64,000 nucleotides of DNA from Paenibacillus sp. sptzw28. Lineage in GTDB: Bacteria; Bacillota; Bacilli; Paenibacillales; Paenibacillaceae. The notes under the pieces were generated by a model that was given only the letters and a program-made list of their open reading frames with translations, had not been told where the DNA came from and made no database searches. Where the stretch lies: positions 699,001 through 763,000 of the forward strand of contig NZ_CP080545.1 of the NCBI RefSeq assembly GCF_019550795.1. The letters are read 5' to 3'. The position numbers were made by a program, and so were the translations under genes. Position 1 is the stretch's first letter, and the number at the start of each line of letters is the position of its first letter. Below, in pieces: positions 12,037 through 19,139 of this stretch.

Positions 12037-15000
12037 ATGATGAACGAAATTCACTGGGATACGCACTCCAAAAACAATTTAAAACGAACGGAAAAAGCCT
12101 TCGACGGCATGAGAAAAAAGCTGAATCTAAATGTGAAGGCCTGTTTGTTCATGCCGCTGGATGCAGTGCGTGCGTTGATTGTCATAAAGGAACGGGGCGA
12201 AACGAGTGAACGTCGTACGTCAGCTTCTAAAAGAAACGAAATAAGCAGGTATGCGGGAAGATCGGGAGAAGTGTATGTGCGGCAGACAGAGGAAGGCAAG
12301 AGAGCAGCGGTTAGCGGCCTGACGGACAGACCGGAGAAAGCGGACGGATTGGAGAGGACGGACGGTTTGGAGAGCGCGGACGGTTTGGAGAGCGCGGACG
12401 GATTGGAGAGGGCGAACAGAACGGACGGAACGGAAAGATCGGAAAGATCGGACAGATCGGACAGATCGGACAGATCGGACAGATCGGACAGATCGGACAG
12501 ATCGGGTGAAGTTAATACGAGGCGTTCAACTGAAGATGATCGTCTCGCTCCGGGCAGGCCAGGGACGCCCGGCCTGCGAAACAGCCGTTCGCGGCGTTCC
12601 GGCTGCCGCAAGCCGGCGCGGAGCTTTGCCGCCCGAACAGCGCTGCACGCTACGCTCGCAGCGCTGCTGCTCTGGGGCGTCTCTGCTGCGGCGGTATCCG
12701 CCGCAGCAGATGCCGCGCCCGCGGCCGCGCCGCCTTCGGCGGCGGACGGCGGCCGTGCGAAGCAGGCCGCCGTGAGCGCCGCAAGCGGCGCCCGGGAGGA
12801 GCCGCGCAGCTGGCTCCTCAAATGGCGCGACCCTGCGCAGGCGAAGCCGCTGCCGGGTACGAGTGTGCTGCGCCGCCAATCGGTGCCGGCGGCGGTGGAG
12901 TTAATCCGTCCGGCCGATCCGGCAGCGGATACGGACCAGTGGCTCCGGCTGCTTCGCGAAACGCCGGGCGTCGAGTATGTCCAGCCGAACAGCCGGGTAG
13001 CGCTGCTTGCCGCAGTATCCTCTAACGATCCGCATCTGCCGAAGCAGCATTATCTGGATCAAATCGGGGCAAAACAAGCATGGGCAACGGTCCGTGATCA
13101 AACCGGTTTGACGATTGGCCTTGTAGATACCGGCGTCGACCTTGACCATCCTGATTTGAAAGACAATCTCGTCGAAGGAACGAACCTTGTGGACACGGGA
13201 CAGCCCCCGGAAGACGATAACGGCCATGGAACGGCAGTCGCGGGTGTATTGGCCGGCAAAGGGGGCAACGGCGAAGGGATTGCCGGTATACTCTGGAAAG
13301 CCAAGATAATGCCGATTAAAGCGCTGGATAAGGATGGCTACGGCGATGAGGAACGGCTCGGAGCAGCAATTCTTTATGCGGTGAAGAACGGTGCTCGAAT
13401 CGTCGTGCTCTCGGTGGGCCTCTACCGATATTCGTCCTACATGAAAGATATTGTGTTATACGCGGAGTCCAAGGGCGTCCTGCTGGTTGCCGCCAGCGGA
13501 AACGACGGCCTTGCTTTGGGCTCCAAGGCGGAAGTGAAATATCCCGCAGCCTATCCGAGCGTGCTTGCAGTAGCGGGAGCCACGGCCGCAAACAAGCCGG
13601 AGCCGCGCTCCAACTCGGGATCGGAGATCGATATTGCAGCTCCTTGGAACGTGTATACGACCGCAGTAGGCGGGGGATACGCGCGTCAGGAAGGAACATC
13701 GATGTCGGCGCCGCAAGCAGCGGCAGCGGCGGCACTGGTATGGGCGATGCATCCGGATTACAAGCCTTATCAAGTCCGCGCCGCACTGCGGCAGAGCGCA
13801 AAAGATATCGGTCCTGCCGGGGTTGATAATGCCAGCGGCTACGGCTTGCTGCAAATTAACCGCGCGGTTACATCCGTCCTCAAAGACGATGCCTACGAGC
13901 CGAATAACCGCCGGGATACAGCAAAACGTTTTCCTCTCGGGACCAAAATATCGGCGCAGCTCGCGGGCGGTACGGACAAAGACTGGTACACAGTCGATGC
14001 CCCCTTTGACGGTATCATTTCCATTCAATTTCAAGGGATTACATCGGCCGGCCAATCAAAGCCGACGGTCCAAATGACCCATTATCAAGGGTACTCGGCA
14101 ACAGGAACCAAAGAAACAAAGCTGGGAAACCAAACAGTAGAATGGCATGTGAAGAAGGGGCGCAATTATTTTGAGCTGCAATTATTTGATAAACAGATCA
14201 CATCGCCGCTGCCTTATCTGCTGACATCAGCATTTGAAAGCGGACCCGACGCTTACGAGAAGAACGACAAACAGTACCAGGCCTCTTCCCTCAAACCGCG
14301 CTCGCAAACGATTATAGGGAACTTTCATCAGACGGGTGACCGGGACTGGTATGCCATTCATTTTGAGACGGGCGGTACGCTGAAACTCATGTTGTCAACC
14401 GATTCGGTACGAATCGATCCGTCAATGTCTATTCAACGGACGGATGAAGTTCTTCAACAAATCGATGAGAACGGTGAAGGCGAAGACGAGACGTCAAAAC
14501 TCGTCAATATCACGCCCGGTACTTATTACATTCGGGTCTATAACGCGATGTCAGCGCAAGCAAGCCCGACAACCGGGCAATACCAGCTGAAGCTCGATTT
14601 CAAAACAAAATATACGGACCCGAACGAACCGAATAATAAAGCCTATGAAGCGACCGGTATAAGGCCGGGCTCCGATTACGTCGGTGTGATCGGCACGTCC
14701 AGCGACGTTGACTGGTACCAGCTTCGTCTTACCAAACAGAGCTACGTGAGAGTTACGATTAAGGAAATTCCGGAAGGTATACAAATGAAGGCCCAAGCGG
14801 TGGATAAGCGTCAGAAGCAGGTCTTCTCCATCCAATCGGATTGGCACCGGAGCGAAATGACGGGCGAGAAGCAGCTTGAACCCGGATTATATTATATTAA
14901 AGTTACCGGGAGCACGGCGTTCGACAAACAATATTACGGCCTCCGCGTTGATGCGCAGCCGATAGTGGCCGGCTTTCGTGATATTTCAGGCCATTGGGCC

Positions 15001-15486
15001 GAGTCGGACGTCGCAGCGCTTAATAAACAAGGCATCGTGAAAGGGCGCGGAAACGGCCGTTTTTATCCGAATGAAGGCATCACGCGCGCAGAAGCCGTAT
15101 CAATGCTCGTAAAGGCGTTCAATCCGGGAGGTTCGCTGCAGACCGGCTTTAAAGATGTTCAGGCCGATCATTGGGCATACAAATCGATCGCAATTGCCGT
15201 GAATGCAGGTTGGGCCGGCGGTTACCCGGACGGCACATTCGCGCCGGACGGCGTCATAACGCGAGAAGAAATGGCGGTAATGATAGCAAGAGCGCTGAAG
15301 GTTCCGACAGCAAGACCGCTCTCCGCACCTTTCCGTGATGTGGAGGCCGCGCGCTGGTCCGCACCTTCGCTTGCCGCGTTTAAGCAGAAGCGTTTAATCG
15401 GCGGCTATGACGATTTGCGGTATAGGCCCGAGCAAACAGCCAGCCGGGCGGAATTCGCTGCAATCCTTAGACGTGCATTAGGGTAA
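12037..15486 (+). CDS. SLH-anchored subtilisin-like serine protease (S8)
   Basis: A secreted S8 protease of up to 1149 residues. The triad is Asp364 (VDTGVDLDHPDL), His397 (NGHGTAVAG) and Ser555 (GTSMSAPQ), with oxyanion Asn489. After the catalytic domain come three PPC-like beta modules, each opening with an EPNN- or EKND-type motif followed by DWY. Three SLH domains at the C-terminus should bind the pyruvylated wall polysaccharide. The first ~190 residues are not protease-like: they contain DGLES and DRS repeats. A Sec-type hydrophobic segment follows only at residues 200-222. The start is therefore uncertain; GTG at 12277 (GGGAG 8 nt upstream) is one alternative. No good ribosome site precedes 12037. 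Confidence 0.8.
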   Translation: MMNEIHWDTHSKNNLKRTEKAFDGMRKKLNLNVKACLFMPLDAVRALIVIKERGETSERRTSASKRNEISRYAGRSGEVYVRQTEEGKRAAVSGLTDRPEKADGLERTDGLESADGLESADGLERANRTDGTERSERSDRSDRSDRSDRSDRSDRSGEVNTRRSTEDDRLAPGRPGTPGLRNSRSRRSGCRKPARSFAARTALHATLAALLLWGVSAAAVSAAADAAPAAAPPSAADGGRAKQAAVSAASGAREEPRSWLLKWRDPAQAKPLPGTSVLRRQSVPAAVELIRPADPAADTDQWLRLLRETPGVEYVQPNSRVALLAAVSSNDPHLPKQHYLDQIGAKQAWATVRDQTGLTIGLVDTGVDLDHPDLKDNLVEGTNLVDTGQPPEDDNGHGTAVAGVLAGKGGNGEGIAGILWKAKIMPIKALDKDGYGDEERLGAAILYAVKNGARIVVLSVGLYRYSSYMKDIVLYAESKGVLLVAASGNDGLALGSKAEVKYPAAYPSVLAVAGATAANKPEPRSNSGSEIDIAAPWNVYTTAVGGGYARQEGTSMSAPQAAAAAALVWAMHPDYKPYQVRAALRQSAKDIGPAGVDNASGYGLLQINRAVTSVLKDDAYEPNNRRDTAKRFPLGTKISAQLAGGTDKDWYTVDAPFDGIISIQFQGITSAGQSKPTVQMTHYQGYSATGTKETKLGNQTVEWHVKKGRNYFELQLFDKQITSPLPYLLTSAFESGPDAYEKNDKQYQASSLKPRSQTIIGNFHQTGDRDWYAIHFETGGTLKLMLSTDSVRIDPSMSIQRTDEVLQQIDENGEGEDETSKLVNITPGTYYIRVYNAMSAQASPTTGQYQLKLDFKTKYTDPNEPNNKAYEATGIRPGSDYVGVIGTSSDVDWYQLRLTKQSYVRVTIKEIPEGIQMKAQAVDKRQKQVFSIQSDWHRSEMTGEKQLEPGLYYIKVTGSTAFDKQYYGLRVDAQPIVAGFRDISGHWAESDVAALNKQGIVKGRGNGRFYPNEGITRAEAVSMLVKAFNPGGSLQTGFKDVQADHWAYKSIAIAVNAGWAGGYPDGTFAPDGVITREEMAVMIARALKVPTARPLSAPFRDVEAARWSAPSLAAFKQKRLIGGYDDLRYRPEQTASRAEFAAILRRALG
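12343..12414 (+). repeat. Four 18-bp tandem repeats in the protease gene
   Basis: Four copies of an 18-bp unit, GACGG(A/T)TTGGAGAG followed by four variable bases, run head to tail and encode DGLES/DGLER-type hexapeptides. The unit is a multiple of three, so copy-number change would keep the frame. Confidence 0.85.
12436..12507 (+). repeat. Eight 9-bp tandem repeats (AGATCGGAC) in the protease gene
   Basis: Six identical AGATCGGAC copies are flanked by one variant on each side (AGATCGGAA and AGATCGGGT). They encode an (Asp-Arg-Ser)n tract just before the putative signal segment. Short perfect repeats of this type are prone to slippage, again in frame. Confidence 0.9.
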
Positions 15487-15496
15487 TGGGACTTAC

Positions 15497-15765
15497 GCTT
15501 ACGATGATGGTTTTGCTCCGCAAAACCCTGCTTACGCTTACGATGATGGTTTTGCTCCGCAAAACCCTGCTTATGCTTACGATGATGGTTTTGCTCCGCA
15601 AAACCCTGCTTATGCTTACGATGATGGTTTTGCTCCGCAAAACCCTGCTTATGCTTACGATGATGGTTTTGCTCCGCAAAACCCTGCTTACGCTTACGAT
15701 GATGGTTTTGCTCCGCAAAACCCTGCTTACGCTTACGATGATGGTTTTGCTCCGCAAAACCCTGA
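15497..15765. repeat. Seven 39-bp tandem repeats, each with a perfect hairpin
   Basis: Seven head-to-tail 39-bp units start at 15497, 15536, 15575, 15614, 15653, 15692 and 15731; the last is truncated. They differ almost only by C/T at the last base. Each unit contains GGTTTTGCTCCGCAAAACC, an 8-bp perfect stem with a 3-nt loop. The array fills the whole gap between the protease stop and the ribosome site of ywzB. No unique spacers exist, so it is not CRISPR. All frames stay open because 39 is divisible by 3; one frame encodes a repeated AYAYDDGFAPQNP peptide but lacks a start codon. Function is unknown: RNA structure, terminator-like block or mobile repeat are possible. Confidence 0.95.
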
Positions 15766-15777
15766 GGAGAATCCGAT

Positions 15778-16032
15778 ATGAACGACATGGATCCGGTACT
15801 TACAAGCGCCGGGCTTCACGCCCTGGTGTCGATAATAATCGAGTTGTGCTCCATTACGCTTGCCTGGTATGCGCTGCAAGGCGTTAAGCTGGACTTCATA
15901 ATGAGCAGGCCGCGCAATGTGAGGGGACGTATTTTACAGGTTATGCTTGCCGTCATACTCGGGCATTTATTTGCCGGTTTTCTCATTGATTACTGGCAAT
16001 GGTCCAATCTGCTTAGAGGGCTTGTCGAATAA
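15778..16032 (+). CDS. ywzB: DUF1146 membrane protein (YwzB family)
   Basis: An 84-residue protein with two hydrophobic helices separated by a short basic loop, matching the conserved DUF1146/YwzB family of Firmicutes. Its function is not established. In B. subtilis the gene lies between the ATP synthase operon and murAA, and here it likewise precedes murA, which supports the call. The ribosome site GAGGAG (15764-15769) begins directly at the edge of the 39-bp repeat array, so translation or transcript stability may be affected by that array. Confidence 0.85.
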   Translation: MNDMDPVLTSAGLHALVSIIIELCSITLAWYALQGVKLDFIMSRPRNVRGRILQVMLAVILGHLFAGFLIDYWQWSNLLRGLVE

Positions 16033-16245
16033 CAAAGAGGAAAGATGTTAACAATGGGTAATAGATACGGGTATGAAAAATGAATGGCTTTACGAATAGT
16101 ATAAAATGCACGGATTAAACGTGATGAAAATAAACCTTGTCGATTTATGTAGATGAATGTTAAGATGAATTTCAGGTGCTTGGAAGGGTACCATATATTA
16201 CACGATTATGCAAAAGAATCTACTGCGCGCGGAGGGAAACCTAAG

Positions 16246-17718
16246 ATGAGCAAAATAATCGTCCGCGGCGGCCAGCGACTATCCGGAAACGTTCGAGTAA
16301 GCGGTGCAAAGAACGCCGTTCTGCCAATTCTCGCGGCCACGTTACTTGCAAAAGAAGGCGAAAGTATTATCAATGACGTTCCCTTTCTTGACGATGTCAT
16401 AACTATACAACATGTGCTTTCCGCCGTAGGCGGAAAATTATCCTACAATAATGAAACGATGCGCATCTCCGCGCAGCAGCTTACATCCTTTGAGGCGCCT
16501 TACGAACAAGTCCGCAAGATGCGGGCTTCATTCCTGGTCATGGGTCCGCTGCTTGCCCGTCTGGGCCGCGCAAGAATTTCACTGCCGGGCGGCTGCGCGA
16601 TCGGAACTCGTCCCATTGACCAGCATTTGAAGGGCTTTGAAGCGATGGGGGCGGAAATCGTACTGGGGCAAGGATATATCGAGGCCCGTACGAGCGGCCG
16701 CTTGAAGGGTGCCAAGATTTATCTCGATGTAGCAAGCGTCGGCGCCACCGAGAATATTATGATGGCGGCCGCTCTTGCCGAGGGGACGACAGTAATCGAG
16801 AATGCGGCTAAAGAACCGGAGATCGTGGATCTCGCCAATTATTTGAACGCAATGGGCGCGAAGGTTCGAGGTGCGGGAACGGGCCTCATCCGCATTGAAG
16901 GCGTCGAGCAGCTATGCGGCGTGTCACATACAGTTATTCCCGACCGCGTTGAAGCGGGTACTTATATGATCGCGGCGGCCATCACCGGCGGTGACGTCCA
17001 CATTGACGGCGCGATCGCAGATCATCTGGCGCCAGTGATCTCTAAATTGCAGGAAATGGGCGTTGACATTAACGAAACGGATAATGGCATTCATGTATCT
17101 GCTCCTCGCAAGCTGAAAGCGGTGGATGTCAAGACGCTTCCTTATCCGGGATTCCCGACCGATATGCAATCTCAAATGATGGCTCTTCTTATGATGTCGG
17201 AAGGTACCAGCGTCGTAACCGAGACTGTCTTCGAGAACCGCTTTATGCATGTTGAGGAATTTCAAAAGATGAACGCGCAAATTAAAGTGGAAGGCCGTCT
17301 GGCCATTGTGAGCGGAAGCCGCAGTCTTAAGGGAGCCAGAGTATGCGCCACCGACTTGCGTGCGGGTGCCGCACTCGTTTGCGCCGCACTTAGTGCGGAA
17401 GGGGAGACGGAAATTACCGGCATACACCATGTGGATCGCGGTTATGTCGATATTGCCGGCAAGCTCGCGTCATTGGGTGCAAACATTAAGAGGGTTGACG
17501 TAGCGGAGCCTTTCGTAACGGTTTCCGTTCAACCGGAAACGTTTGAGCCTGTGATTGCCGGAAAGATGGAAGCTGCCGTTAACGCCGCAGCTGAGGTGCA
17601 AGCGGTTATCGCAGTTATTTCAAGCGAAGCTGCAGCCGAAAAGCTGAACGAAACGGAATTCGATTACAAACGGGAGAAAGAAGTTTCCCGAATTAAAGCA
17701 CAGCCGACATGGGCATAA
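16246..17718 (+). CDS. murA: UDP-N-acetylglucosamine 1-carboxyvinyltransferase
   Basis: The first committed enzyme of peptidoglycan synthesis; it transfers enolpyruvate from PEP to UDP-GlcNAc in the cytoplasm. The N-terminal [13 protein letters not shown] block and the catalytic loop GGCAIGTRP with Cys117 are present. At 490 residues it is about 55 longer than usual because of an Ala/Glu-rich C-terminal tail beyond the normal end. The ATG at 16246 is chosen for GGAGGG 9-10 nt upstream and because the protein then starts MSKIIVRGG as expected; the frame upstream is extra. Position before spoIID matches B. subtilis murAA. Confidence 0.95.
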
Positions 17719-17790: not shown

Positions 17791-18683
17791 CTATGCAACA
17801 AGCTGGCGCCGGTATTCAACCGGTGTCAGCTTGTTTAGTTTTCGTTGAGCGCGATCTTCATTGTAAAATTGGATGAATTCCTCCATTCGCCTTTGTGCCT
17901 CATCGATAGATCGTATATCATAGGGATAGAGTGCTTCGACTTTAAGATGAGAGAAGAAGCTTTCTATCGAGGCGTTGTCATAACAATTGCCTCGGCGTGA
18001 CATGCTGATTTGGGCTCCAACCTGTGGCAGCATGTCGTGGTAAGCATGAGACGTGTACTGGCTTCCTTGGTCACTGTGAATGATCAATCCAGTCACGTCT
18101 TTATGTTTGTTGAACGCCTTCTTAAAAGTCTCTAAAACAAGTGGGTTGTCGTTGTTCCTACTTATGTGGTAGGCAATGATTTCGTTATTCCAGAGATCCT
18201 TAATGGCTGACAGATAGATTCTTTCATCCAATACCCGATACTGAGTTACGTCGGTTACCCATTTTAGATTGGGAGCGTCTGCCTTAAAATTTCGTTGCAG
18301 TAGATTTTCTGCGATCCGGCCATCCTCTACCGCTGCTTGCTGACTTGTTCGGTGAACATATTTGCGACGGATAACAGCTGAATGCCCAGCTCCTGCATTA
18401 AACGAAGTACCTTCTTGTGATTAACCACGAGGCCATGCTGGCGATACAACTCATCCTGTACGCGCCGGTAGCCCACAGTCTTGTTACGGCGTTCAAATAT
18501 AGCTGTAATTTGACGTTTCAGATCTTCGCTAGGATCATGGTTGCTTCTTTTCAGATAGCTGTAGTATCCACTACGACTGATACCAAGGTATTGGCATAAT
18601 CCTTTTATGCTTTGTCTGTTCTTCATTTGGTCGACAACGATGTGCTTACAGTGTGCACCTCCTGATTCAAGATTTGTAACCAC
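17791..18683 (-). pseudogene. IS3-family transposase OrfB, frameshifted
   Basis: The catalytic DDE integrase of the IS, in two reading frames. The N-terminal half (18327-18683) carries the HTH_21-like region (SIKGLCQYLGISRSGYYSYL). The C-terminal half (17791 to about 18380) holds the DDE residues: WVTDVT, HSDQGSQYTS and DNASIESFFSHLK. Reading resumes in frame if one base is restored in the codon after GIQ near 18377, giving ...GIQAVIRRKYVHRTSQQ. This looks like a single-base deletion, so the enzyme is probably inactive unless ribosomes slip there. Confidence 0.85.
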
Positions 18684-18952
18684 TTTTTTAGTACGTCTAC
18701 CTCCAATTGCAACCGACGGAGTTCGCGTTCTTGTTCGGTCTCCGTTCGTTTCGGATCTCCCCGACCATCCTTAAATGCGGTGTCTCCAACTTCCCGATAC
18801 TTCCTCACCCATATCTTAATTCGATCTTTATCCTGAACTCCCAAATGAATAGCAATGGACCTCTGGCTCCAGCCCTCCACCGTGTGAAGACGAATTGCCT
18901 CCATCTTAAGTGACTCAGGATAATGCTTAAATTTTTGTCCCTTTAGCGCCAT
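18623..18952 (-). CDS. IS3-family transposase OrfA (HTH protein)
   Basis: A 109-residue DNA-binding protein with a helix-turn-helix near the start (ESLKMEAIRLHTVEGWSQRSIAIHLGV region) and a second HTH/coiled-coil part. ATG at 18952 has AGGGGGTG 8 nt upstream. An A6G slippery run at 18683-18689 (codons AAA AAG in VLKKW) is the typical site for a -1 programmed frameshift that fuses OrfA to OrfB in IS3 elements. OrfA looks intact. Confidence 0.85.
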   Translation of the reverse strand: MALKGQKFKHYPESLKMEAIRLHTVEGWSQRSIAIHLGVQDKDRIKIWVRKYREVGDTAFKDGRGDPKRTETEQERELRRLQLEVDVLKKWLQILNQEVHTVSTSLSTK

Positions 18953-19139
18953 AAAAAATACACCCCCTAGAAATATCATCGGTCAACCCAGGGGTTTTTC
19001 CAATGTCTATTCTAAGGGGTGCACTTCACCAAGCGGTGCAGGGTTTTTTGTTATTTTATTTTCGCCGGGGCGCCAATATTTTCTACGAAAATAGCGATAA
19101 TTGATTGCTATTGTATAACCGGCTTCCCCTAACCGGGGT

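Follow-up and report, generated by a model that had tools for sequence, protein, structure and literature searches.

Tandem hairpin repeats before ywzB in a Paenibacillus genome belong to a family of short structured repeats that usually end in a Shine–Dalgarno sequence

The array of hairpins that precedes ywzB in Paenibacillus sp. sptzw28 represents, in tandem form, a family of structured Paenibacillaceae repeats of about 40 nt that usually end in a Shine–Dalgarno (SD) sequence, an assignment that is well supported by the comparisons presented here. The typical unit begins with a linker, GCTTNCGRWGY, followed by a main hairpin of about 8 bp, usually 2–3 further nt and AGGAGG, with the start codon usually 6–11 nt on. 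The sequence of the main hairpin is largely free between loci and its arms remain complementary. Since the linker, and likewise the SD, served as the search key for most loci, the conservation of these two elements is partly built in.

Within the window, by which we mean the whole 64-kb stretch of DNA that was analysed (64,000 nt), Tandem Repeats Finder returned seven head-to-tail units on the forward strand at 15492–15764 (period 39, 7.0 copies, 99% match). Together with an exact-match search, this confirmed the seven-copy 39-bp array of perfect hairpins described from the sequence in an earlier note. The hairpin GGTTTTGC-TCC-GCAAAACC is perfect in all seven units and, as that note had also observed, a single C/T base is the sole difference among them (C in units 1, 2, 6 and 7; T in units 3, 4 and 5). 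The array does run up to the ribosome site of ywzB, its last unit ending one base before AGGAG, as had been claimed; the left edge had been set 5 bases inside the first unit. The sequence GGTTTTGCNNNGCAAAACC occurs seven times in the 6.1-Mb genome of this strain, always inside the array, and a search of the same genome allowing up to three mismatches found the exact 39-bp unit confined to the ywzB array. In the unit of the window the base 3′ of the linker core is A, at a position where C or T prevails in the family. Coordinates are collected in the table below.

Table. Features of the ywzB array and its neighbours (positions in the window)
Feature	Position	Strand	Remarks
Tandem array, 7 × 39 bp	15492–15530, 15531–15569, 15570–15608, 15609–15647, 15648–15686, 15687–15725, 15726–15764	+	
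First copy of linker core GCTTACGATG	15497–15506	+	recurs every 39 bp
First main hairpin, GGTTTTGC-TCC-GCAAAACC	15509–15527	+	
Other copies of main hairpin	15548–15566, 15587–15605, 15626–15644, 15665–15683, 15704–15722, 15743–15761	+	
Shine–Dalgarno AGGAG of ywzB	15765–15769	+	right edge of family module; full-length covariance-model match 15731–15770, E 2.2e-7
ywzB (DUF1146)	15778–16032	+	its SD adjoins the array; ATG at 15778
Upstream subtilase with SLH (S-layer) domains	12037–15486	+	stop codon 15484–15486, 5 nt before the array

Because the stop codon of the subtilase gene lies only 5 nt upstream, the array is intercistronic. The name ywzB is that of the earlier note, the protein being identified as DUF1146, and the next gene encodes an EPSP-synthase-family protein that we take to be MurA. 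The array RNA folds with −83.4 kcal/mol (z −3.25), and none of 100 dinucleotide shuffles folded as well. A scan of 15300–16260 found no promoter-like or terminator-like site. Two further features of the neighbourhood were recorded. The N-terminal part of the subtilase ORF (12322–12505) contains in-frame tandem repeats of 9, 18, 27 and 36 bp that give rise to a low-complexity, SDR-rich stretch, and just downstream of murA three ORFs on the minus strand at 17791–18979 resemble an IS3-type transposase pair, the second gene of which is in two pieces.

The 14-nt linker TTAYGCTTWCGAWG has 59 matches in the genome of this strain, against none for the reversed pattern. By reading, 57 of the 59 belong to 23 loci, each of which leads into an SD-like motif in the same orientation. 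The other two matches, at genome positions 388105 and 4215740, have no SD, and only the latter has a hairpin. A clear ORF lies behind 21 of the 23 loci (with the SD about 20 nt more distant at L218). L148 is followed by just a 69-codon frame from ATT, and L166 by an ATG frame of 24 codons overlapped by a long frame. A scripted tally with a looser linker gave 37 clusters, three of which are parts of one long array, leaving 35 arrays; single-unit clusters were retained only with an SD and a stem of at least 6 bp, so that some weak sites are absent from this tally. The 25 clusters with at least two units make up 23 multi-unit arrays, and in each of these 23, which were not selected for an SD, a loosely defined SD-like motif lies within 90 nt of the last linker.

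The arrays comprise 1–33 units, with periods mostly of 37–43 and of 46–49, 65–69 or 79 at some loci with a longer hairpin. Over the 22 nt after the linker, identity is 0.86 within arrays and 0.43 between them, in agreement with the recent expansion that had been proposed for the ywzB array. At L159 two stem types alternate in the order ABABAB. The largest array, of 33 copies of a 49-bp unit over 1.6 kb, stands directly before mutS (L153:448–2040; C1 about 3005336–3006928), a gene identified by TIGR01070 with 817.7 bits at a cut-off of 641.7. Extended hairpins occur in the 79-nt units before a YtxC-like gene (L161:3527–3967) and in the 66–69-nt units before a topoisomerase B subunit gene (L213, around 2022–2360).

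The genes behind these loci, a list that includes the weaker single-unit sites, comprise rlmB, atpD, topoisomerase subunit B (ParE/GyrB), ffh, thrS, argS, uvrA, dapA, rnpM (ylxR), hrcA, tatA and prsW, together with genes for a ZapA-like protein, a PrkA-family kinase and a SpoIIP-like protein, a Ger(x)C spore-germination gene, several ABC-transporter genes and genes for small uncharacterised proteins. For most of the long proteins the scan covered the first 300 residues, and some scores lie below whole-protein cut-offs. Twenty of 37 loci of this genome lie within 150 nt downstream of a same-strand ORF of at least 100 codons, so many are intercistronic and the others are leaders.

The pattern CTTWCGAWG followed by GGAGG within 15–45 nt has 43 matches in the genome of this strain and its reversed form 5, and a search for linker and SD that left the hairpin free showed that stems vary (for example GCGTTTTC/GAAAACGC, AGTTTTAC/GTAAAACT and AACTTTTC/GAAAAGTT). 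We collected 78 distinct segments running from linker to GGAGG, with no hairpin criterion, from genomes G000, G003, G331, G311 and G330 and from loci of named Paenibacillus species; genome G275 was excluded from the set since its linkers mostly do not precede SDs. A perfect stem of at least 7 bp is present in 59 of the 78 segments, as compared with 12.5% of chimeras that join a 5′ half to a foreign 3′ half and 0.4% of shuffled segments. The 78 segments contain 40 distinct 5′ arms.

Covariation was examined in an alignment of 42 distinct gapless 40-mers matching GCTTNCGRWGY..AGGAGG at that spacing, which contains no row from the window and includes eight rows from genome G099 (six from its MITE-like repeat, see below) and eight from G298. 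In the main stem 88.4% of cells are paired, against 73.9% after shuffling, and its covariation score of 0.381 exceeds that of the shuffled alignments (0.147; none of 500 reached the observed value) and that obtained on sliding (at most 0.127). Two-sided changes occur at six of the eight main-stem pairs, a weaker measure that 40 of 500 shuffles also reached. The linker itself could form a mini-hairpin, GCUU-NCG-RAGY, which is imperfect in the unit of the window. Its pairing in 97% of cells is imposed by the search pattern and for that reason is not counted as evidence, and it displays no two-sided change.

A covariance model (R1) built from the 42 rows and applied to the whole window with a limit of E 1 returned the seven units and no further hit. 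The last unit matches over its full length, SD included, and the other six match positions 1–33 of the model at E 2.3e-4, E-values being rough. R1 also matched linker and hairpin in all 13 Paenibacillus stretches that had been found by the hairpin alone, one of which (L063) is also in the training alignment. Among 50 stretches from outside Paenibacillus that carry the same 19-nt hairpin, the matches were mostly to the hairpin only (model positions 12–31 or shorter). The exceptions, which speak against a clean separation, are L037, L047 and L070, from the goat-rumen Clostridia MAG RGIG3492, which match at full length (E 4.8e-5) and in which a longer G+C-rich hairpin, CCTTCCCCTTCGAGGGGAAGG, stands before the shared one; this pair of hairpins is either a separate repeat or a distant parallel. 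Four further non-Paenibacillus loci gave weak full-length matches (E 0.19–0.71), and 12 loci of other Bacilli with a chance linker gave none up to E 1.

The earlier note had proposed searching the 39-bp unit against Paenibacillaceae genomes. The exact unit proved to be local to its own array, and the family, once defined by linker plus structure, is widespread; the alternative offered there, a slippage product found only here and without variation, does not hold on that definition. Its suggestion of a new family of tandem structured repeats is sustained in the form of a linker, a locus-specific hairpin and, usually, a terminal SD. The exact hairpin is present in seven of 394 family genomes, this strain included, and absent from the 21 other genus genomes searched. 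The family genomes that bear it, and 13 stretches of named Paenibacillus species, have a similar linker before it and mostly an SD and a start codon after it, with tandem copies at a period of 41 in P. paeoniae and 40 in P. pinisoli. A collection scan found the exact 19-nt hairpin in 63 stretches from many phyla, and this hairpin alone is a poor marker of the family. The Spirochaetales MAG Pc512_bin102 carries it on many of its contigs, in the absence of the linker (L015, L029, L034, L039, L040, L042, L045, L061 and L071); R1 matches the hairpin part there, with weak full-length matches only at E 0.19–0.71, and this is probably an unrelated hairpin repeat.

The linker is present in 320 of 388 Paenibacillaceae genomes, and in 22 genomes of the genus hand counts add up to 248 matches against 18 for the reversed pattern, very unevenly distributed (59 and 47 in two genomes, none in five). 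Outside the family, by hand count, 63 of 361 genomes of the class Bacilli have one or two matches each, the control being of the same order. The linker is thus enriched in Paenibacillaceae and at background in the 361 other Bacilli genomes. A broader pattern, which allows linker variants and requires AGGAGG, found matches in 91 of 118 family genomes, the best pattern-to-control counts being 58/2 (G311), 37/2 (G351), 33/2 (G347), 29/1 (G360) and, in the genome of this strain, 28/4; many family genomes are at background with this pattern, from which the unit of the window itself departs. In some congeners the linker before atpD reads GCTTCCGGAG, a variant that may partly explain their low counts. 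In P. tyrfis and P. tianmuensis a member with GAGGGGG lies upstream of a gene read as hemA, with no start codon directly behind it.

We then compared the same genes in relatives. A protein query for atpD found the linker before this gene in eight of 22 genus genomes, this strain included, amid different neighbouring sequence; the atpG–atpD junction of this strain has 65-nt units. Elsewhere several genomes have just a small hairpin before the SD of atpD, and G003 and G005 have none, G003 having a unit before a gene read as atpC. A perfect stem of at least 5 bp precedes atpD in 13 of the 22 genomes, as compared with 21.7% of random 40-mers, and one of at least 7 bp in six of 22, as compared with 1.9%; coming from related genomes, these counts are only supportive. 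Of seven other SD sites taken as a control, two have a stem of at least 5 bp, and one of these is a further family member (L288).

At ywzB the result was different. No element was found before this gene in 21 congeners, either by reading or by an R1 search up to E 0.1. The genes served are mostly non-orthologous between the genome groups compared, the named species being treated as one group, and only a PrkA-like kinase (this strain and three named species) and one G003/G331 pair were common. Taken together, these findings indicate that sites turn over and that no single gene needs the element. Closer named species do share sites, the same gene being found by reading in L036/L043/L074, in L035/L060 and in L031/L044/L053. 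Where congener ywzB loci can be read, a stop codon and a GGGAG-type SD lie close together, and in this strain TAATGGGA and GGAGAATCC flank the array. At this one site, judging from the sequence, the array appears to have entered and split an ancestral GGGAG SD.

Dispersed copies within single genomes provide information on the limits of the module. In G298 we took 19 of the 22 matches listed and left out three without a matching stem. Nine of the 40-mers are identical, and the 17 units of that length average 96% identity. Between the fixed linker and AGGAGG, where nothing was fixed by the search, most columns carry 1.4–2.0 bits; 3′ of AGGAGG the value falls to 0.76 bits at the next base and to less than 0.2 over the following five, and leftwards the information tapers, with upstream units or half-hairpins that differ. 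At all 19 loci an ATG (17) or TTG (2) lies 6–11 nt after AGGAGG and opens a frame of at least 117 codons. Either many genes of this genome have received a copied module that contains the SD, or copies have been kept only at SDs, copies that lack AGGAGG being invisible to the search pattern.

Two genomes depart from this arrangement. In G275 none of the 10 linker loci examined by reading lies directly before an SD, although a broader pattern finds a few units there that do. Seven of its loci (L231, L234, L237, L240, L246, L252 and L258, positions about 1350–1700) belong to a MITE-like repeat, at least about 200 bp long, whose ends are inverted; the seven aligned copies carry a large hairpin and the family linker, and most of them a second hairpin. 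In G099, where one unlike element among the 12 matches listed was left out, another dispersed repeat carries the linker-hairpin-AGGAGG module (L335, L337–L342, L344 and L345, around position 1000): nine of the 11 loci share its flanks, and the frame behind AGGAGG is of at most 17 codons. These repeats have the same linker and hairpin as the ywzB family, but are longer, have shared flanks and are not directly followed by a gene start, a finding that makes a role tied to the SD alone less straightforward.

With regard to function, there is about an even chance, in our judgement, that the hairpin and the strong SD form a 5′ stabiliser and translation-initiation module for the downstream cistron. 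Hairpins can block 5′–3′ decay of the RNase J type. The module would act in the mRNA, in a 5′ leader or between cistrons, where one or more hairpins would block such decay, also after endonucleolytic cleavage upstream or inside the linker, and would leave the SD free for ribosome loading. The downstream cistron might then be expressed above, or independently of, its neighbours, and the element probably adjusts the lifetime of the downstream message or the efficiency of its use. Tandem amplification and the homogenisation within arrays point to slippage, and slippage between identical units would alter copy number and could tune the effect. Stabilisation of Gram-positive leaders by a 5′ stem-loop and ribosome binding is described in PMC3997798, whose references include STAB-SD and the work on the aprE stem-loop with ribosome binding. 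A point against the stabiliser model is that correction of quasi-palindromes by template switching could keep the arms complementary without selection. The turnover of sites and the dispersed repeats of G275 and G099 also count against it. More tentatively, and as a possibility that we would not rate as probable, the family may be a dispersing ribosome-binding-site module of about 40 nt with the SD as its right edge, which has been copied to many Paenibacillaceae genes, homogenised and tandemly amplified (to at most 33 copies), and which would serve as a heritable, fast-changing dial on the translation or stability of housekeeping-gene messages.

It is also conceivable, if unlikely, that the repeats are selfish or neutral, of a MITE-like or BOX-like kind, generated by copying, slippage and template-switch correction and surviving mainly where they carried or preserved an SD. 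The occurrence of almost identical 40-mers at numerous unrelated loci within a genome, the MITE-like repeats of G275 and G099, the small number of orthologous sites conserved between the genomes compared, the higher identity within than between arrays and the seemingly split SD of ywzB would all be expected on that account. Against this, linkers recur under other search keys (the hairpin and the atpD protein) while stems drift between loci, the coding-strand placement before SDs is nearly universal in the genome of this strain, and the element occurs at atpD in several congeners with different sequences.

The recurrence of the linker under independent search keys would fit a specific regulatory site, in which a protein or small RNA would bind the linker beside the SD, the dozens of genes would form one post-transcriptional regulon and tandem copies would raise occupancy. 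We regard this as rather improbable. In 96% of 151 units a C or a T follows the 14-nt linker, at a position that the selection left free, in keeping with the closing G–Y pair that the mini-hairpin would need; the linker-hairpin module abuts the SD, and limitation to one family would suit a family-specific factor. However, the target genes lack an obvious common function and differ between genomes, the mini-hairpin lacks two-sided change and its pairing in the 40-mers is fixed by the search pattern, and in the genome of this strain exact antisense of the 14-nt linker is limited, outside the arrays, to two stray matches. The consensus of RNase Y is a weak one according to the part of PMC11780869 consulted, so that the known specificity of this enzyme does not explain the linker, and a linker-binding factor remains a serious rival to the stabiliser reading.

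That the units are ordinary intergenic terminators or attenuators is very improbable: the hairpins are intergenic and some are followed by 3–4 T, but the stems of about 8 bp are AT-rich, an SD instead of a U-tract lies directly behind them, and the scan of 15300–16260 found no terminator-like site, in line with the earlier note, which had set aside both a simple terminator and CRISPR. Other readings were rejected as well. The units follow one another head to tail with no unique spacers between them, which rules out a CRISPR array, and a search against Rfam 15 found no family at the gathering score anywhere in the window and, for the array itself, none even at E-values up to 5. Long frames cross the array on both strands, as a period of 39 bp (13 codons) allows, and a coding repeat has no other support; a leader peptide from the ATG of the unit is ruled out as this codon is ACG in four of the seven copies. 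Searches of two collections with blastn gave no phage or plasmid match at E 0.01. In type III toxin–antitoxin systems the toxin gene lies directly downstream of the RNA repeats. Here the downstream gene encodes a DUF1146 protein and no toxin, and the other loci of this genome mostly precede housekeeping genes.

The preferred reading, a hairpin and SD that act together in the mRNA, has counterparts among known systems. Among them are the 5′ mRNA stabilisers of Gram-positive leaders, namely the aprE stem-loop plus ribosome binding, STAB-SD of cry3A, and ermC; they are single-gene leaders, whereas the ywzB family is dispersed, with a common linker, tandem copies and many intercistronic sites. For the tandem amplification the nearest precedent is the BOX family of Streptococcus pneumoniae, described in PMC3049150 as short interspersed repeats in which the number of boxB units in tandem varies and for which stem-loops are predicted in the RNA. 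BOX is not tied to an SD in the same text, in which the word ‘ribosome’ does not occur, whereas the right edge of the ywzB family is usually an SD and its stems are locus-specific. In clostridia, intercistronic stem-loops termed SRPS are mostly not terminators and could set operon stoichiometry; 27 of 33 belong to 3′ processing sites, where their presumed role is to protect the 3′ end of the upstream transcript (PMC4423207). The hairpins of the ywzB family differ from what is described there: they lie immediately before a downstream gene's SD and are members of a repeat family. Full-text searches of open-licence PubMed Central, judged by listing and abstract, brought up no description of the family. 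We rate the family as new, the new feature among small dispersed structured repeats and 5′ stabilisers being the SD-bounded design with locus-specific stems.

If the proposed role is correct, gene expression throughout a bacterial family would be subject, genome-wide, to a level of control that seems not to have been described before: RNA hairpins that move or duplicate would provide the ribosome-binding site or lie beside it. Translation initiation and operon stoichiometry would then be tied to small dispersed repeats, a class of sequence often regarded as near-neutral, and the modules would offer portable natural ribosome-binding sites for the engineering of Paenibacillus. Furthermore, as mutS is a mismatch-repair gene, the 33-copy array before it prompts a hypothesis open to test, namely a feedback of repeat instability on the mutation rate.
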